A stretch of DNA of 64,000 nucleotides, taken from the NCBI GenBank assembly GCA_903909605.1, contig CAIVWH010000010.1, positions 1-64,000 on the forward strand. The letters are read 5' to 3'. The stretch's first letter is position 1, and each line of letters begins with the position of its first letter. The notes beneath the pieces are model-generated. The model was not told where the DNA came from. It made no database searches and saw only the letters and a list, made by a program, of their open reading frames with translations. A program made the position numbers and the translations under genes. This document shows positions 56,557 to 62,709 of this stretch, in pieces. This stretch comes from an uncultured Micrococcales bacterium. Its GTDB lineage: Bacteria > Actinomycetota > Actinomycetes > Actinomycetales > Microbacteriaceae.

Positions 56557-58638
56557 TTAGGCGTCGATTCGCTCACGTTCGAAGCTGTCGGCTGAATCGA
56601 TGATGAAATCACGACGAGGTGCAACCTCGTTGCCCATCAGCAGCTCGAATACCTTGTCTGCCTGCTCGGCCTGCTCCATTCGAACTCGACGCAGGGTGCG
56701 GTGTGCGCGGTCCATCGTGGTTTCCGCCAGCTGATCCGCATCCATCTCGCCGAGACCCTTGTAGCGCTGTATTGGGTCTTTGTAGCGCTTTCCAGACTTC
56801 TCCAGCTTCACCAGCAACTGCTCTAGCTCTTGCTGGGAATAGGTGTAGAGAACATCGTTTGCCTTCGAACCGGGGTTGATTACCTCGACCCGGTGTAGCG
56901 GCGGGACTGCGGCAAAAACTCGTCCGTCTTCAATCAGTGGTCGCATGTATCGATAGATGAGAGTCAGCAGCAAGGTTCGAATGTGAGCGCCGTCAACATC
57001 CGCGTCGCTCATCAGGATGATCTTGCCGTAGCGAGCAAGTTCGAGTTCGAAACTGCGGCCGCTGCCTGCCCCGACCACCTGGATGATTGATGCGCACTCG
57101 GCGTTTGAAAGCATGTCGGAAACCGAGGCCTTCTGCACATTCAGGATCTTTCCGCGAATTGGCAAAACAGCCTGGAACTCGCTATTTCGGGCAAGCTTCA
57201 CGGTACCTAGCGCCGAATCACCCTCAACGATGAACAACTCGCTGTCGGCTGTGTCGGTGGTTCGGCAATCGACCAATTTGGTCGGCAGCGAGGACGACTC
57301 GAGAGCGTTCTTGCGACGCTGCGTCTCCTTGTGCGCTCTGGCAGAGATTCGAGACTTCATCTCGGCGACAATCTTGTCGAACAGAATCGCAGTCTGCGCT
57401 TTGTCGTCGCGCTTGGAACTGTTGATGCGATCTGTCAAAGTCTTGGTGACCACGTTGGCAACGATGTTTCGAACCGCTGGAGTGCCGAGCACCTCTTTGG
57501 TCTGCCCCTCGAATTGCGGTTCGGCTAGGCGAACAGTGACGACCGCGGTGAGGCCGGCGAGGATGTCTTCCTTTTCGACCTTGTCGTTACCAGCCTTCAA
57601 TTTGCGAGCGTTTGCTTCGATGTGCCCACGGATGGTTTTGAGAAGCGCCTGCTCGAAACCGGCAATATGACTGCCACCCTTTGGCGTCGAGATGATGTTT
57701 ACGAACGACTTGACCACCGTGTCGTAACCGCTGCCCCATCGAACGGCGATGTCGACTTCGCAGTTGCGAGTGACCTCACGACTGACCATGTTGCCCGATT
57801 CATCCAACACTGGGATGGTCTCGGTGAAATCGCCCGACCCGCTGAGCCGCCAGGTGCTGGTAATCGGGTTGTCGCTGGCAAGGTAGTTCGCAAATTCGAC
57901 AATCCCGCCGGCGAAGCGGAAGTCTTGCTTGGTCGATTTCCCGTCGCGCTGATCATCGACGGTGATGCCTAACCCTGGCACCAGGAACGCCGTTTGTCGC
58001 GCCCTTGCAGAAAGCTCATCGATGCTGAATTGGGCATCCTTGACAAAGATTTGTGGGTCGCCCCAATATCGCACTCGAGTGCCGGTAACACCCTTTGGAG
58101 CCTTGCCGATTACCCGAAGCTCGCTAGCTTCATCGAAGGGCTTGAACGGATTGCCTGGCTTGATGCCCTTGGCGTCATCAAACACGCCTGGTTCGCCACG
58201 GCGGAAGGACATCGCGTAGGTCTTGCCATCGCGATCTACCTCGACGTCGAGACGCTCACTCAACGCGTTGACCACAGACGCACCCACTCCGTGCAAGCCG
58301 CCAGAGGCCGCGTATGAACCACTGCCGAACTTTCCTCCGGCATGCAGCTTGGTGAAAACAACCTCGACACCGGTAAGCCCAGTCTTTGGCTCGATGTCAA
58401 CCGGGATGCCGCGGGCCTTGTCGCGAACCTCAACGCTGCCGTCCTTGTGCAGGGTCACATCGATCTGATTGCCAAAGCCCGCAAGGGCCTCGTCAACGGA
58501 GTTGTCGATGATTTCCCAAACGCAGTGCATCAGGCCGCGGGAATCGGTCGAACCGATGTACATTCCTGGGCGCTTGCGAACAGCCTCTAAACCCTCGAGA
58601 ACTGAGAGGTGGCGGGCTGAGTATTCGCTTTTGGACAC
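56557..58638 (-). CDS. parE: DNA topoisomerase IV subunit B
   Basis: 693 residues. GHKL ATPase domain (VLEGLEAVRKRPGMYIGS, ETIDNSVDEALAG-like EIIDNSVDEALAG, GGLHGVGASVVNALS), transducer, and TOPRIM (IVEGDSALGTVKLARN, LMSDADVDGAHI). GTG 58638 has no Shine-Dalgarno apart from an overlapping GAGG; a TATCCT box lies six bases upstream. Tail-to-tail with parC across 48 bases holding no clear terminator. Confidence 0.93.
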   Translation of the reverse strand: MSKSEYSARHLSVLEGLEAVRKRPGMYIGSTDSRGLMHCVWEIIDNSVDEALAGFGNQIDVTLHKDGSVEVRDKARGIPVDIEPKTGLTGVEVVFTKLHAGGKFGSGSYAASGGLHGVGASVVNALSERLDVEVDRDGKTYAMSFRRGEPGVFDDAKGIKPGNPFKPFDEASELRVIGKAPKGVTGTRVRYWGDPQIFVKDAQFSIDELSARARQTAFLVPGLGITVDDQRDGKSTKQDFRFAGGIVEFANYLASDNPITSTWRLSGSGDFTETIPVLDESGNMVSREVTRNCEVDIAVRWGSGYDTVVKSFVNIISTPKGGSHIAGFEQALLKTIRGHIEANARKLKAGNDKVEKEDILAGLTAVVTVRLAEPQFEGQTKEVLGTPAVRNIVANVVTKTLTDRINSSKRDDKAQTAILFDKIVAEMKSRISARAHKETQRRKNALESSSLPTKLVDCRTTDTADSELFIVEGDSALGTVKLARNSEFQAVLPIRGKILNVQKASVSDMLSNAECASIIQVVGAGSGRSFELELARYGKIILMSDADVDGAHIRTLLLTLIYRYMRPLIEDGRVFAAVPPLHRVEVINPGSKANDVLYTYSQQELEQLLVKLEKSGKRYKDPIQRYKGLGEMDADQLAETTMDRAHRTLRRVRMEQAEQADKVFELLMGNEVAPRRDFIIDSADSFERERIDA

Positions 58639-58644
58639 CTCGAA

Positions 58645-58650
58645 AGGATA
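58645..58650 (-). promoter_or_regulatory. Candidate leaderless -10 box of parE
   Basis: Minus strand TATCCT (58650-58645), six bases (TTCGAG), then GTG of parE. Confidence 0.5.
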
Positions 58651-58773
58651 CCTGCGGCCGCCTACAAAGCCTTGGATTTGAAGCGTGGCTGGAAATTCGC
58701 AGATAGCGAAATAGGGTGAAATCGGCAATAAATTGTCGGGGGTCTGTGTTCAGATAGAGGCCGAGAGGAATTA

Positions 58774-58992
58774 ATGTCTACTGCTGAACTTGAGAACGAA
58801 ACCGAAACTCCACGTGAGTTGAACGCACTCGATCGTTGCGACATCTGTGGCGCACAGGCGTATGTGCGAGTCGAACTATCGACCGGCGAACTTCTCTTCT
58901 GCGCACACCACGCAAACGAGAAGCGTGCTGCCATTGAGCCTATTGCTATTGCCTGGCACGACGAGACCTCAAAGCTCGAATCTTCGAAGTAA
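58774..58992 (+). CDS. DUF7455 small zinc-binding protein
   Basis: 72 residues. The core ALDRCDICGAQAYVRVELSTGELLFCAHHANE has C-x2-C and C-x-H-H, likely a zinc site. Fits DUF7455, a small actinobacterial family usually near sigma factor and topoisomerase genes. Function unknown. Shine-Dalgarno AGAGGA lies 5 bases before ATG 58774. Confidence 0.88.
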   Translation: MSTAELENETETPRELNALDRCDICGAQAYVRVELSTGELLFCAHHANEKRAAIEPIAIAWHDETSKLESSK

Positions 58993-59002
58993 TTTCAACG
59001 AA

Positions 59003-59638
59003 CTAGTTAGCTGCGATCTCTGTCGCTAGCTCAATCGCCGCTTTGGCTAGAGCAGCCACTTGGCTAAATCGTTTCCCATCGACTTCGCCTTGCGCAGCTC
59101 GAACCTCGGGGCGAAGCGCAACCACTCTTCCGAGAATTCTGTCTGCAAGCCACAGATTCTTGGCGAGCAATGGGCCATGCAGTGCAGACCCAATCAAGTT
59201 TTCACTCAACAGCAGATTCTCTAAAAGCAGGTCGGTGTTTTTATAACCCGCAAGAACGTGCCCGTCGAAATCTTCGACGACGAAATTAGAGAACCGCTCA
59301 TCCAGTCGCTCAATTGTCGATGGCAACGCCGGCAAGAGGCCGTGCAGGGCGGCGAAGCCGCTGTTGATGGCGATCACCTGCGTGCCCTGCTGCACCCACT
59401 GCTCAATAGCGGGTATCAGAGCCTTCAGTGCCGGGTAGGCCTGGCGCCAAGCTGCGCTTGAACCATGTCCGATAAGCACCACATCGGGGCGCTCCTGGGG
59501 CAAACCTGCTCCGAGGCCCACCTTCTCAAACGTGACGCTGAGGCCACCCCACTGCGCACGGCGCTGCAGAATCAGCAGGTTGCCGGCATCACCGTTGAGG
59601 TCGAGGTGTTCAGGAAACAACTGGAGCAGGCGGATCAT
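59003..59638 (-). CDS. GatD-like amidotransferase subunit lacking the catalytic cysteine
   Basis: 211 residues, about 30-40 fewer than usual GatD. The frame is that of the CobQ/GatD-type glutaminase: LFPEHLDLNGDAGNLLILQRRAQW at the N-terminus and SALHGPLLAKNLWLADRIL with the His (His154) at the end. But the nucleophile elbow, normally AVCGGYQLLG, reads AINSGFAALHG, so Asn92 stands where the Cys is expected, and the whole protein has no cysteine. GGGQD is GHGSS, and the GFENHGG motif is GYKNTD. It cannot hydrolyse glutamine by the known mechanism. Start ATG overlaps murT (ATGA), so the two are made together. Confidence 0.85.
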   Translation of the reverse strand: MIRLLQLFPEHLDLNGDAGNLLILQRRAQWGGLSVTFEKVGLGAGLPQERPDVVLIGHGSSAAWRQAYPALKALIPAIEQWVQQGTQVIAINSGFAALHGLLPALPSTIERLDERFSNFVVEDFDGHVLAGYKNTDLLLENLLLSENLIGSALHGPLLAKNLWLADRILGRVVALRPEVRAAQGEVDGKRFSQVAALAKAAIELATEIAAN

Positions 59639-60897
59639 CGTTGAACCTCGTCTGGACTCGTGAAGCCAAGATGCCTGCGCAGGCGACGCATTGCGTCTGC
59701 ACTGAAAACGACGGTGCGGATACCCGATTTAGGCTCTGGCAGGGACATGAACTTGTCGATGGCGGCGAACAAGTCTGGCTCGACATCATCGACAGCAATG
59801 TTTTCATAAATCAAGCGAAGGCCAAGCTCTGCATAGTTGTAGCCGCTGATTATGTCCACGTGGGTCAAGCGTGAAAGATCTACAGTCCACATCCAAGAAG
59901 GGTCATGTACGTCTCGCCCAATGGCAATCATTAGTCGGTCGAGCGGAAGTTCCAGGTTTTCCAGATTCAATTGGAAAGAAGTCGGGTTTTGCACGAGAAC
60001 AAACTCCACCGGCTTGCCCTGAATCTCCACGATTTCGCCGCGAGCGAATACCGGTGGCAACTCTGCCATTACCTTTTCGGCGAGCTCCAGATCGAATTCG
60101 GCACCGAGAAGTTCGCGCGCAGTGGCGATAGCTGCAACCGCATCGAGGGCATAGTGAGTACCGCGGTTTGGCAGCTCAAAGATCATCTCGCGCTCCCCCA
60201 ATCGCACCATGCATCGACGATCATTCAGCGACACCACTTCGGCCGAAACTGTCGGCCGGGCAATTTCCTCGAGATAGGTCGGGGCTACCCCGAGGTCATC
60301 GCCGTGCAGCACATCTGGCGAAACCCCGAAGTATGACTTCTCAGGAGGGTGAATTTCAGCATCAATCAACAGGATGTTCTGATCATCCGCGTTCATCAGC
60401 ACACTCTGGGTTGCGCGAGCCGCGACGTTTGCCAACTTCTCCCGCACTAACGCAGGGTCAACAAAGCGGTCTAACTGGTCTTCGAGAACATTGAGCAGAG
60501 TCACGAGTCGAGGCGCCACCTCCGCACTCAGCGTGTCGGCGTGAGCCTCGTCAACTTCGAGAATCGCAATGTCGCCTGGAATCTTTCCGAAGAGATTGCT
60601 CTGTTCAACTATCGACGAGAAGAATCCCTGTCGAATGTTTGCCGTGGTTGGATTTGTGAACACCTCTAGGCCGTGTGCCCTGGCGATCGCGACAACCATT
60701 TTTGTCGTGGTCGACTTTCCGGCTGAGCCAGTGACAATCACTAGCCCCTGCGGGAAGGCACCAAGTGTCTTTGCCAGAAGTCCGGGAGCCAGCTTGCTCA
60801 ACAACAGGCCTGGAGCGGCAGAGCCCCCGCCAGGACGAAAACGACGGATAGCCCTTCGCGCCAAGCGACTAATCAGGATCGCAGGCAGGTAAAACAC
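59635..60897 (-). CDS. MurT-like Mur ligase without the zinc ribbon
   Basis: 420 residues. Mur ligase family: a membrane-proximal hydrophobic N-terminus, P-loop TGSAGKSTTTK (57-66), ILEVDEAHADT (112-122), HYALDAVAAIATA (248-260), FARGEIVEIQGKP (284-296) and the DUF1727-type C-terminus with GRDVHDPSWMWTVD. In the middle, where MurT normally has two C-x2-C pairs, residues 190-222 are short and contain no cysteine. Family MurT activates the D-Glu alpha-carboxyl of lipid II. GTG start, three bases after rpoD, without Shine-Dalgarno; a TACTCT five bases upstream may be a weak leaderless box. Confidence 0.88.
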   Translation of the reverse strand: MFYLPAILISRLARRAIRRFRPGGGSAAPGLLLSKLAPGLLAKTLGAFPQGLVIVTGSAGKSTTTKMVVAIARAHGLEVFTNPTTANIRQGFFSSIVEQSNLFGKIPGDIAILEVDEAHADTLSAEVAPRLVTLLNVLEDQLDRFVDPALVREKLANVAARATQSVLMNADDQNILLIDAEIHPPEKSYFGVSPDVLHGDDLGVAPTYLEEIARPTVSAEVVSLNDRRCMVRLGEREMIFELPNRGTHYALDAVAAIATARELLGAEFDLELAEKVMAELPPVFARGEIVEIQGKPVEFVLVQNPTSFQLNLENLELPLDRLMIAIGRDVHDPSWMWTVDLSRLTHVDIISGYNYAELGLRLIYENIAVDDVEPDLFAAIDKFMSLPEPKSGIRTVVFSADAMRRLRRHLGFTSPDEVQR

Positions 60898-60900
60898 TTT

Positions 60901-62709
60901 TTAGAGTACGTCCATGAAGTCTCGGAGCAACTGCGCCCTAGAAGGGTGCTGCAGCTTCTGCATGGTCTTTGATTCGATTTGGCGAATTCGCTCACGGGTC
61001 ACGCCTAGCTCTTCACCAATCTGGTCAAGGGTCTTGGCGATACCGTCGACCAGGCCGTAACGTGACTTGATGACTTTCGCCTCTCGCTCGGTAAGGCCCT
61101 GCAGCAGGCGCTCAATCGCTTCATTGCGGGCACGAGTGACCGAAGCCTCAACAGGCGATACCGCCTCGACGTCTTCGATCAGGTCGCCGAATTCGCTGTC
61201 GCCATCTTCGCCAAGCGGAGTCGAAAGCGAGATTGGTTCGCGACCATACTTCTGCACCTCGACTACCTTTTCAGGTGTCATGTCGAGCTCGTGCGCGAGC
61301 TCTTCTGGCGTCGGTTCGCGGCCGAGATCCTGAAGCAACTGACGTTGAACGCGCGAGAGCTTGTTGATCACTTCAACCATGTGAACCGGGATGCGGATAG
61401 TGCGAGCCTGGTCAGCCATTGCGCGAGTGATTGCCTGACGAATCCACCAGGTTGCGTAGGTAGAGAACTTGAAGCCCTTGGTGTAGTCAAACTTCTCGAC
61501 CGCACGAATCAATCCGAGGTTTCCCTCTTGAATCAAATCGAGGAACTGCATACCTCTACCGGTGTAGCGCTTCGCGAGCGAAACAACCAAACGAAGGTTT
61601 GCCTCGAGCAAGTGCGCCTTCGCGCGGCGGCCATCCTTGACCACCCAGCGCAGATCCTCGGTCATTGTCTTGCTTAGGCGCTTGTCGGTAGCCAATTTCT
61701 CTTCTGCGAAAAGACCGGCTTCGATGCGCATCGCGAGATCAACTTCGAGCTCTGCATTTAGCAGTGCAACCTTTCCGATCTGCTTCAGGTAATCCTTTAC
61801 AGAGTCGTTGGTTGCCCCTGGAATCGCGATTGTCTGAATCGCGATGTCGTCTTCTTTGTTCTTGAAGAGCAAAACACCTTCAGGATGCTCGTCTTCATCT
61901 TCTTCGTCGTCCTCGACCACCAGCGGAACAGCCGCTACCGCCTCGGCAACAATCTCTTCGACTGCAAGGTCGTCGCTGTCAACTACAACGACATCATCGT
62001 CTAGTTCATCGTCGTCTTCAGGAAGATCTGACCCCTTTGCACCCTTGACCGCCTTGGCTGGCTTGGCCTTTCCGGCCGGCTTTACCGCTGGGCCAGTGCT
62101 CTTGACTGTTGCTGGCTTGGTGGTTTTAGATTCCTTGGCGGCCGGCTTGGTGGCTGCCTTTGTCGGCTTGACAGCTGGCTTGGCGGCGGTCTTCGTTGCG
62201 GTCTTAACGGCCGGCTTGGCGACAGGTTTGGCTGATGACTTTGTGACTGGCTTGGCGGCAGCCTTGGCAGCGGGCTTCGCCGCCGTTTTGGTTGCTGCTT
62301 TGGCGGCTGGTTTGGCTACAGGCTTGGTGGCCTTAACGATTGGCTTCGCGGTCGACTTCGCGGCTGGCTTCGCTGCCGGTTTAGCAGTGGTCTTCGCTAC
62401 CGGCTTGGCGGTTGGCTTAGTTGCAGGCTTGCTGGCCTTAACGGCTTCCTTGGCTGTTGCCTTGGCGGCCGGCTTGGTAGCTGCTTTGGCTACGGGCTTA
62501 GAAGCAGCCTTGGCAGCTGGCTTCACGGCCGGCTTAGTTGCTGGTTTGGCTGATGGTTTAGCAGCGGTTTTGGCCGCAGGCCCAGCGGCTGGCTTACCGC
62601 TCTTTGGAGTTGAAACTGAAATGGTCTTTCCCTTTACTGGTGCCGACTTAGCCTTGCTTCCACCCAGGAGGCCACTCAAGAATCCGCGCTTATTACTCGG
62701 TTGAGCCAT
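60901..62709 (-). CDS. rpoD: Primary RNA polymerase sigma factor
   Basis: 602 residues. Residues 1-36 are a short head, 37-226 a Lys/Ala/Pro/Thr repeat region, 231-277 an acidic segment, then region 1.2 (about 300-335), region 2 ([57 protein letters not shown]), region 3, and region 4 ([24 protein letters not shown]). The region 2.4 sequence is that of the housekeeping HrdB/SigA group. Shine-Dalgarno GGAGG precedes ATG 62709. MurT-GatD-like genes follow on the same transcript. Confidence 0.96.
62032..62601 (-). repeat. Lys/Ala/Pro repeat segment of rpoD
   Basis: About 190 codons of imperfect AAKPAAKPA-type units in rpoD residues 37-226. At DNA level the plus strand shows recurring GGCTTGGC/GGCTTCG words. 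Length in this region probably varies between strains. The long open frame on the other strand here is a by-product of the repeat. Confidence 0.85.

Follow-up and report, generated by a model that had tools for sequence, protein, structure and literature searches.

In the 64,000-nucleotide stretch from an uncultured Micrococcales bacterium that was analyzed here (contig CAIVWH010000010.1 of assembly GCA_903909605.1; hereafter the window), a murT-like and a gatD-like gene probably encode an amino-acid ligase derived from the MurT/GatD amidotransferase. Judged from the sequences and the gene neighborhood, this ligase would act on the alpha-carboxyl group of D-Glu in group-B peptidoglycan, with GatD as a structural partner. 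The family to which the bacterium belongs, the Microbacteriaceae, is a large family of bacteria from soil and water. Group-B peptidoglycan, reportedly described by Schleifer and Kandler in 1972, has served for decades as a taxonomic marker, and according to the same authors its bridges reportedly start at the alpha-carboxyl group of D-Glu.

Loss of the Glutaminase Nucleophile in the Window Pair

A phmmer alignment placed Asn92 of the GatD-like protein in the column of the catalytic Cys of Staphylococcus aureus GatD (5n9m/6gs2). As an earlier note made from the letters of this DNA had claimed, the protein is free of Cys and keeps the His, and the MurT-like partner retains the P-loop, the EVDEA and FARGE motifs and the Asp of the DPSWMW motif and has no C-x2-C pair. 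The MurT-like protein contains a single Cys. Both frames are open, and their ATGA overlap likely reflects translational coupling (Table 1).

The two proteins are distant members of their families. The MurT_C domain (PF08353) scored just over its cut-off of 25 bits in the MurT-like protein (28.2 bits in the genome search, 25 bits in the protein search) and Mur_ligase_M reached the Pfam cut-off, while GATase_3 (PF07685) stayed below its cut-off of 27 bits in the GatD-like protein, with 17.8 bits. Both proteins fell far below the cut-offs of the NCBIfam equivalogs (80.8 versus 800 bits for MurT; 42 versus 400 bits for GatD). In the window's genome (G000; 1.34 Mb, 97.97% complete), PF08353 matched the window MurT alone, and the three matches to PF07685 were identified as PurQ, PdxT and HisH by reading their sequences. 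As the proposal of the earlier note would require, no second MurT/GatD pair was found in the searches with these two profiles, of which PF07685 also missed the window's own GatD, so that an equally divergent lone GatD could escape.

A GatD Without the Nucleophile Cys Is a Trait of the Family

We divided the pairs into class III, defined as the clade of window-like MurTs, class II, with His at the nucleophile column of GatD, and Cys pairs, in which the nucleophile is present. In the census of 199 Microbacteriaceae genomes, the Pfam profile for MurT_C detected 137 and missed 62. An alignment of class III MurTs (A1) brought 26 of these 62 to E ≤ 1e-20, for which reason the Pfam profile was dropped as a census tool; the other 36 stayed above that value. 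Genomes with a best A1 match at E ≤ 1e-20 were taken as MurT-bearing (163) and the rest as MurT-less (36). Four genomes with A1 E-values of 1e-24 to 1e-33 (G005, G053, G099, G123) were left unclassified.

GatD could be read in 131 pairs of the family, namely 95 window-like, 12 His and 22 Cys pairs, and 2 odd pairs (L038, L040) on long branches with Gly and Asn at the nucleophile, which were excluded from class III before counting. Together with one pair from the order search (L142), the 95 window-like pairs make up a class III set of 96 pairs from 93 genomes. None of the 96 has a Cys at the nucleophile column, which is occupied by Gly (70), Ala (16), Asn (5), Ser (4) or Thr (1). A Cys in the stretch around the nucleophile elbow was seen in 5 of the 96, at differing positions, and none is conserved. 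His is present at its column in 64 and lost in 32, and the column of Arg128 holds Arg in 90. All 68 Cys pairs from the family and the order have Cys, His, Arg and Tyr at the four columns, and the GatDs of the order from outside the family have the Cys in all 46 readable cases (47 loci, one of them cut by a contig end). When the profile of the class III MurTs was run against 396 genomes of the order, scores from 564.9 bits upward were confined to the Microbacteriaceae, and no other family exceeded 425.6 bits.

We also scanned named GTDB genomes with alignment A1 and retained the best 80 of 400 relatives (hereafter the named loci). The Cys was absent from all 79 readable GatDs, and 76 of the 80 loci carry names that we take to be those of the Microbacteriaceae or its genera. 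Because the named loci were selected by their class III MurTs, and because at least 16 of them duplicate DNA of the family genomes, they do not count as independent evidence. The Cys-less GatD of the window is a family trait, beyond chance.

Two single loci are worth recording. The pair is retained in a single-contig genome of 0.93 Mb (L090, G015), with Ser at the nucleophile and nine Cys elsewhere in GatD. The named locus L182, labeled Planococcus sp. APC 4015, holds a sigA-murT-gatD-gyrase island of the Microbacteriaceae, and is probably mislabeled or contaminated.

In the MurT tree, all 96 class III proteins fall in a single clade (SH-aLRT 100), nested in Cys-bearing and mostly ribbon-less MurTs. 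Class II forms a separate clade elsewhere (support 99), next to the long branches of L038 and L040, and the family's own Cys pairs are interspersed with those of other families. The C-x2-C pairs are also absent from 31 of the 46 non-family MurTs whose readable GatD bears the Cys. The missing zinc ribbon, which the earlier note had read as a sign of repurposing, was therefore rejected as a clue.

The walls of several bearers are described in the literature, cited here from excerpts of the papers. The wall of Rhodoluna lacicola MWH-Ta8 is of type B2beta with diaminobutyrate (Dab), and D-Ala-D-Dab was recovered from it (PMC4156110). Walls of type B2gamma are stated for Subtercola and Agreia, and B2beta for Frondihabitans (PMC5945732), and B2gamma also for Agromyces aureus (PMC5217419) and Clavibacter (PMC5358740). 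For Microbacterium, the excerpts give only the diamino acids, D-Orn, L-Lys or Dab (PMC10757982). Cys-less pairs thus occur in six genera with a group-B wall stated in the excerpts (Rhodoluna, Subtercola, Agreia, Frondihabitans, Agromyces and Clavibacter), matched by genus rather than strain except for Rhodoluna lacicola, which was matched by species and strain. This species (G010), from the genus of the window, has Ala at the GatD nucleophile. The expectation of the earlier note that loss of the Cys tracks with group-B walls is supported by these six genera and by the wide spread of the loss in the family, but not as a simple rule, since 22 of the 131 family pairs keep the Cys.

Both Genes Are Under Purifying Selection in Relatives

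Of 17 pairs of relatives compared, 15 gave a finite dS (14 of class III, one of class II), and in all 15 the dN/dS ratio was below 1 for both murT and gatD. The ratio for gatD ranged from 0.05 to 0.51 and exceeded that for murT in 14 of the 15. Both genes are under purifying selection in the relatives, which agrees with the claims of the earlier note that the coupled frames are not decaying and that GatD is retained.

Of the 64 columns conserved among the Cys-class MurTs, class III preserves 32 in at least 90% of its proteins and 11 in less than 30%. The kept columns include the P-loop Lys and, in window numbering, E114, D116, E117, D140, R144, R286 and D332. The last of these, equivalent to Asp349 in S. 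aureus, is retained in 96 of 96 although the Cys, its proposed partner in a triad, is gone. The columns that changed (L108 numbering) include T58 of the P-loop, now Ser, R139 (Val, Ile or Thr), N262 (Asp), R369 (Lys) and T414 (Asp or Glu), and the loop before the catalytic Asp is altered, with a deletion. From this pattern we infer that the ATP site is unchanged and that the side of the incoming nucleophile has been remodeled. A link between MurT subclass and bridge diamino acid was considered and dropped: Curtobacterium, Frigoribacterium and Agreia share a single loop type.

The Slot Behind sigA Is Shared With a CofE-Like Ligase

Class III murT is located directly behind sigA in 88 of the 90 stretches that hold sigA (96 in total), and lies 594 and 862 bp off in the remaining two. 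Class II murT is directly behind sigA in 12 of 12. None of the stretches with Cys pairs contains sigA (0 of 22 in the family, 0 of 46 outside it), and the seven Cys pairs that were viewed with wider flanks were all in unrelated places.

In the MurT-less genomes examined, the slot holds a protein of about 235 amino acids with the Pfam domain F420_ligase (PF01996), which is distant from true CofE: three versions scanned gave 40 bits, 25.6 bits and no match, against a true-CofE cut-off of 180.65. This CofE-like protein was found at E < 1e-100 in 27 of the 36 MurT-less and in none of the 163 MurT-bearing genomes (Fisher p = 5.5e-26, uncorrected for relatedness), and it is directly behind sigA in all 23 readable stretches of the 27. 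The slots with CofE-like and without MurT/GatD are L266, L268, L269, L271, L272 and L286-L312. Ten genus groups hold both a CofE-like genome and a genome of class III (nine groups) or class II (one group). In a weakly supported sigA tree of 135 rows, the CofE label needs 15 changes, of which 5 are forced by well-supported branches; seven long or truncated rows had been dropped from 142, and with all 142 rows there are 16 changes, 7 of them forced. Because unrelated ligases replace each other often at one place, the slot MurT/GatD and the slot CofE-like protein most likely do the same job.

Racemase Halves and Other Neighbors of the Ligase

In 31 of the 80 named loci (between L143 and L218; e.g., L160:8021-9771), the stretch contains an alanine-racemase-like protein, alpha, accompanied in 30 by a partner, beta; the remaining one is cut by a contig end. 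The aligned alphas have the lysine that binds pyridoxal phosphate (PLP) in 18 of 18, and lack the hairpin with the catalytic Tyr in 18 of 18. The catalytic Tyr is present in all 21 aligned betas, in which the lysine column holds Arg (17) or Ala (1), lacks the segment (2) or is unalignable (1). Beta lacks the lysine, and most of its barrel is missing; Pfam shows complementary truncations in the pairs scanned. In alanine racemase, the Lys and the Tyr of one active site are supplied by different subunits, and by this analogy alpha and beta look like an obligate heterodimer.

At least 43 genomes of the family have a clear beta, at most 5 kb from the ligase in 39, far from it in one and on a different contig in the remaining three, so that 39 of the 40 testable genomes have it within 5 kb (32 beside a class III MurT and 7 beside CofE-like). 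For this count we used rows whose match begins no later than profile position 20, and excluded G020, G100 and G134, which have long frames and are probably whole racemases, as well as the second rows of G077, G140 and G192; the G140 row was inspected and is a whole racemase of 370 amino acids. A strict link between racemase and ligase was rejected, with the racemase in only 31 of the 80 named loci.

The diaminobutyrate transaminase EctB scored over its cut-off in 35 of the 199 family genomes, and is located beside MurT/GatD in G177 and within the CofE-like islands of G057 and G020. An ATP-grasp protein (PF14397), possibly a second bridge ligase, is encoded in several MurT-less islands and one class II island. 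The loci are L267, L268, L270 and L272 by Pfam, and L283 and L309 by similarity.

The slot of the window has none of the racemase halves, EctB or ATP-grasp extras known from the islands of the relatives, and neither a split racemase nor EctB above the cut-off was found in the window's genome. The features of the window are listed in Table 1.

TABLE 1 Coordinates of the ligase pair, its key residues and the flanking genes in the window
Feature	Position	Strand	Description
gatD-like	59003..59638	-	211 aa; Asn92 replaces the glutaminase nucleophile; zero Cys; proposed structural partner
murT-like	59635..60897	-	420 aa; starts with GTG; contains MurT_C and a Mur ligase middle domain; proposed to ligate an amino acid to the D-Glu alpha-carboxyl
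ATGA overlap, murT stop and gatD start	59635..59638	-	Read from the sequence
Asn92 codon	59363..59365	-	Aligned by phmmer with the catalytic Cys94 of S. aureus
His154 codon	59177..59179	-	S. aureus His189 column; His in the window, variable across class III (64/96 His)
Arg115 codon	59294..59296	-	S. aureus Arg128 column, assigned by motif; Arg in 90/96 class III
MurT Asp332 codon	59902..59904	-	S. aureus Asp349 column, assigned by motif; Asp in 96/96 class III
MurT P-loop TGSAGKS	60712..60732	-	From the sequence
sigA, principal sigma factor	60901..62709	-	Immediately upstream of murT; forms the left border of the slot, which is conserved
DUF7455 (PF24254), small conserved protein	58774..58992	+	Between the slot and the gyrase/topoisomerase gene
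GyrB/ParE-like subunit	56557..58728	-	Usual right border of the slot; seen in 77/80 named stretches

Proposed Mechanism and Alternative Explanations

The biochemistry of the S. aureus enzyme shows what a GatD without its nucleophile can do. In the excerpts of the published work, GatD C94G together with MurT has lost the use of glutamine and keeps NH3-dependent amidation at pH 8.5, has no activity with NH3 at pH 7.5, and MurT alone is inactive (PMC3266927); the C94S and C94A proteins are dead for glutamine, and the complex or fold stays intact (PMC6113224, PMC5871853). Because C94G/MurT amidates with NH3 and MurT alone is inactive, a GatD with Gly for Cys can support MurT without a glutaminase.

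The scheme that we infer for the window ligase, including its acceptor and the amino acid that it attaches, is as follows. MurT would bind a lipid-linked or UDP-linked stem peptide and, with ATP, activate the alpha-carboxyl group of D-Glu at position 2 as an acyl phosphate, with which a free amino acid would react through its amino group in place of ammonia. The incoming residue would most likely be the bridge diamino acid (D-Dab in Rhodoluna), or possibly Gly where Gly comes first. GatD would have lost glutamine hydrolysis and been retained as an obligatory structural partner. Starting from a state that uses NH3, as in C94G, the simplest step would be that MurT came to accept the amino group of an amino acid. 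The earlier note had named either an amino acid or free ammonia as the substrate. We favor the amino acid because of the CofE-like exchange, the racemase halves and the transaminase neighbors, all of which fit it better than they fit ammonia.

We are evenly divided about a broader proposal, in which the sigA slot would be a group-B bridge locus where the D-Glu alpha-carboxyl step has been taken over repeatedly by three ligases, that is, two separately arisen MurT/pseudo-GatD lineages and the CofE-like protein, fed in many genera by a heterodimeric racemase with a single active site composed of the Lys of one subunit and the Tyr of the other.

Several observations weigh against the proposed ligase or its extension to the family. 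The Cys is kept in 22 of the 131 family pairs, and 18 of the 199 genomes hold a Cys pair only. Nine genomes have neither ligase, which brings those without a slot ligase to 27 of 199, and four (G054, G066, G124, G163) combine a Cys pair with one of class III. The earlier note had counted a Cys retained in relatives with group-B walls as evidence against repurposing; the 22 Cys pairs found would be such cases if their bearers have group-B walls. None of the 22 has sigA in its stretch, and four of them share their genome with a Cys-less pair. The region upstream of the gyrase gene was also inspected in 12 Cys-only genomes, 6 genomes lacking both ligases and G005 (19 in total; L316-L334), and it yielded no MurT or CofE-like match except for a weak one of 29 bits in L327. 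sigA was recognized in 15 of these 19 stretches; genes in the island and gyrase-upstream stretches were called with a crude codon-position rule, which missed sigA in some. Should the bacteria that lack a slot ligase prove to have group-B walls, the step must fall to another enzyme.

The supporting context has gaps of its own. Weaker CofE-like matches (1e-37 to 1e-45) occur in three MurT-bearing genomes (G053, G123, G147). The racemase is lacking from the stretch in 49 of the 80 named class III loci, including those of Curtobacterium, Clavibacter and Agromyces, and the absence of a split racemase and EctB leaves the D-Dab supply of the window organism unexplained. The GatD tree separates classes II and III poorly and does not by itself require two independent losses of the Cys, which rest on the MurT tree for this reason. 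In both comparisons that include the window's own MurT, the dS of MurT is saturated.

At three loci of G053 and G123 (L285, L313, L335), a MurT frame of 606-724 amino acids and a CofE-like match (about 1e-44) lie at the same place. The two ligase types may be fused or may overlap there.

The alternative that survives best, and which we nevertheless consider unlikely, is an amidase that depends on ammonia, in which case the pair would go on making D-isoglutamine with free ammonia, on stem peptides that take no part in cross-linking. It draws on the NH3-dependent activity of C94G/MurT at pH 8.5 in the S. aureus excerpts and on Gly being the commonest natural replacement of the nucleophile (70 of 96), but the same mutant is inactive with NH3 at pH 7.5 (PMC3266927). 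An amidase also fits poorly with the racemase and EctB neighbors and with exchange for a CofE-like protein, whose named relatives use L-glutamate, by their family names. The group-B bridge itself, according to Schleifer and Kandler, reportedly needs that carboxyl group.

Unlikely as well, and ranked after the amidase, is the same chemistry on an acceptor other than peptidoglycan, such as a teichoic acid, a cofactor or a lipid. The CofE-like proteins do have relatives outside wall synthesis, for example the F420 ligases. Against this, MurT relatives act on lipid II according to the excerpts of the S. aureus work, the locus in relatives encodes diamino-acid chemistry such as occurs in walls of the family, and class III is confined to the Microbacteriaceae among the 396 genomes of the order.

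It is very improbable that glutamine is still the donor, with another residue of GatD or a glutaminase in trans feeding ammonia to MurT. The His and Arg columns are often retained (64 and 90 of 96), as this explanation would have it, but the His is lost in 32, no conserved Cys is found near the elbow (5 of 96, at differing positions), and replacement of Cys94 by Ala, Ser or Gly abolishes the use of glutamine in the S. aureus excerpts. Decay of a dying amidase, suggested by the lost catalytic residue, the GatD score of 17.8 out of 27 bits and the higher dN/dS of GatD in 14 of 15 pairs, has next to no probability and is already contradicted by dN/dS ratios that stay under 1 for murT and gatD alike wherever dS is finite (15 pairs), by an open GatD frame beside 96 of 96 class III MurTs, and by the fixed place and the coupling of the genes.

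The amino-acid ligase reading turns a named gene pair, its CofE-like replacement and the racemase into specific candidates for the group-B bridge step. Among the matches listed in searches of the open-access literature, which leaves subscription papers and preprints outside, we found no paper on a Cys-less GatD in the Microbacteriaceae, a group-B bridge ligase or a split alanine racemase in this family. If the reading is true, the pair would be a clear natural case of a glutamine amidotransferase that has lost its glutaminase and become an amino-acid ligase, with the dead subunit kept.

Comparison With Known Systems

The slot neighbors in many relatives resemble alanine racemase (Alr, PF01168/PF00842), but differ in being split into complementary halves; they were not found in the window's genome. 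CofE, the F420-0:gamma-glutamyl ligase (PF01996), is a relative of the protein that takes the same slot in 27 genomes and that would do the same step, although it belongs to another Pfam family than MurT/GatD. With MurE, MurF and other Mur ligases, the window ligase would share its proposed chemistry, the ATP-dependent formation of an amide between a carboxyl group of the stem peptide and an amino acid. It differs from MurE and MurF in that it groups with MurT by sequence and, by analogy, needs a GatD partner.

The closest known system is the MurT/GatD lipid II isoglutaminyl synthase of S. aureus, Streptococcus pneumoniae and Mycobacterium tuberculosis. Common to this enzyme and the window pair are both subunits, the coupling of their genes, the Mur ligase middle and MurT_C domains, the P-loop, the Asp349 equivalent and the similarity of GatD along most of its length. 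The window MurT lacks the zinc ribbon, as do many actinobacterial MurTs with a Cys-bearing GatD. Unlike the synthase, the window pair has no glutaminase nucleophile, has a changed loop before the catalytic Asp and scores far under the NCBIfam cut-offs, and pairs of its type sit behind sigA, where they are exchangeable with a CofE-like ligase.

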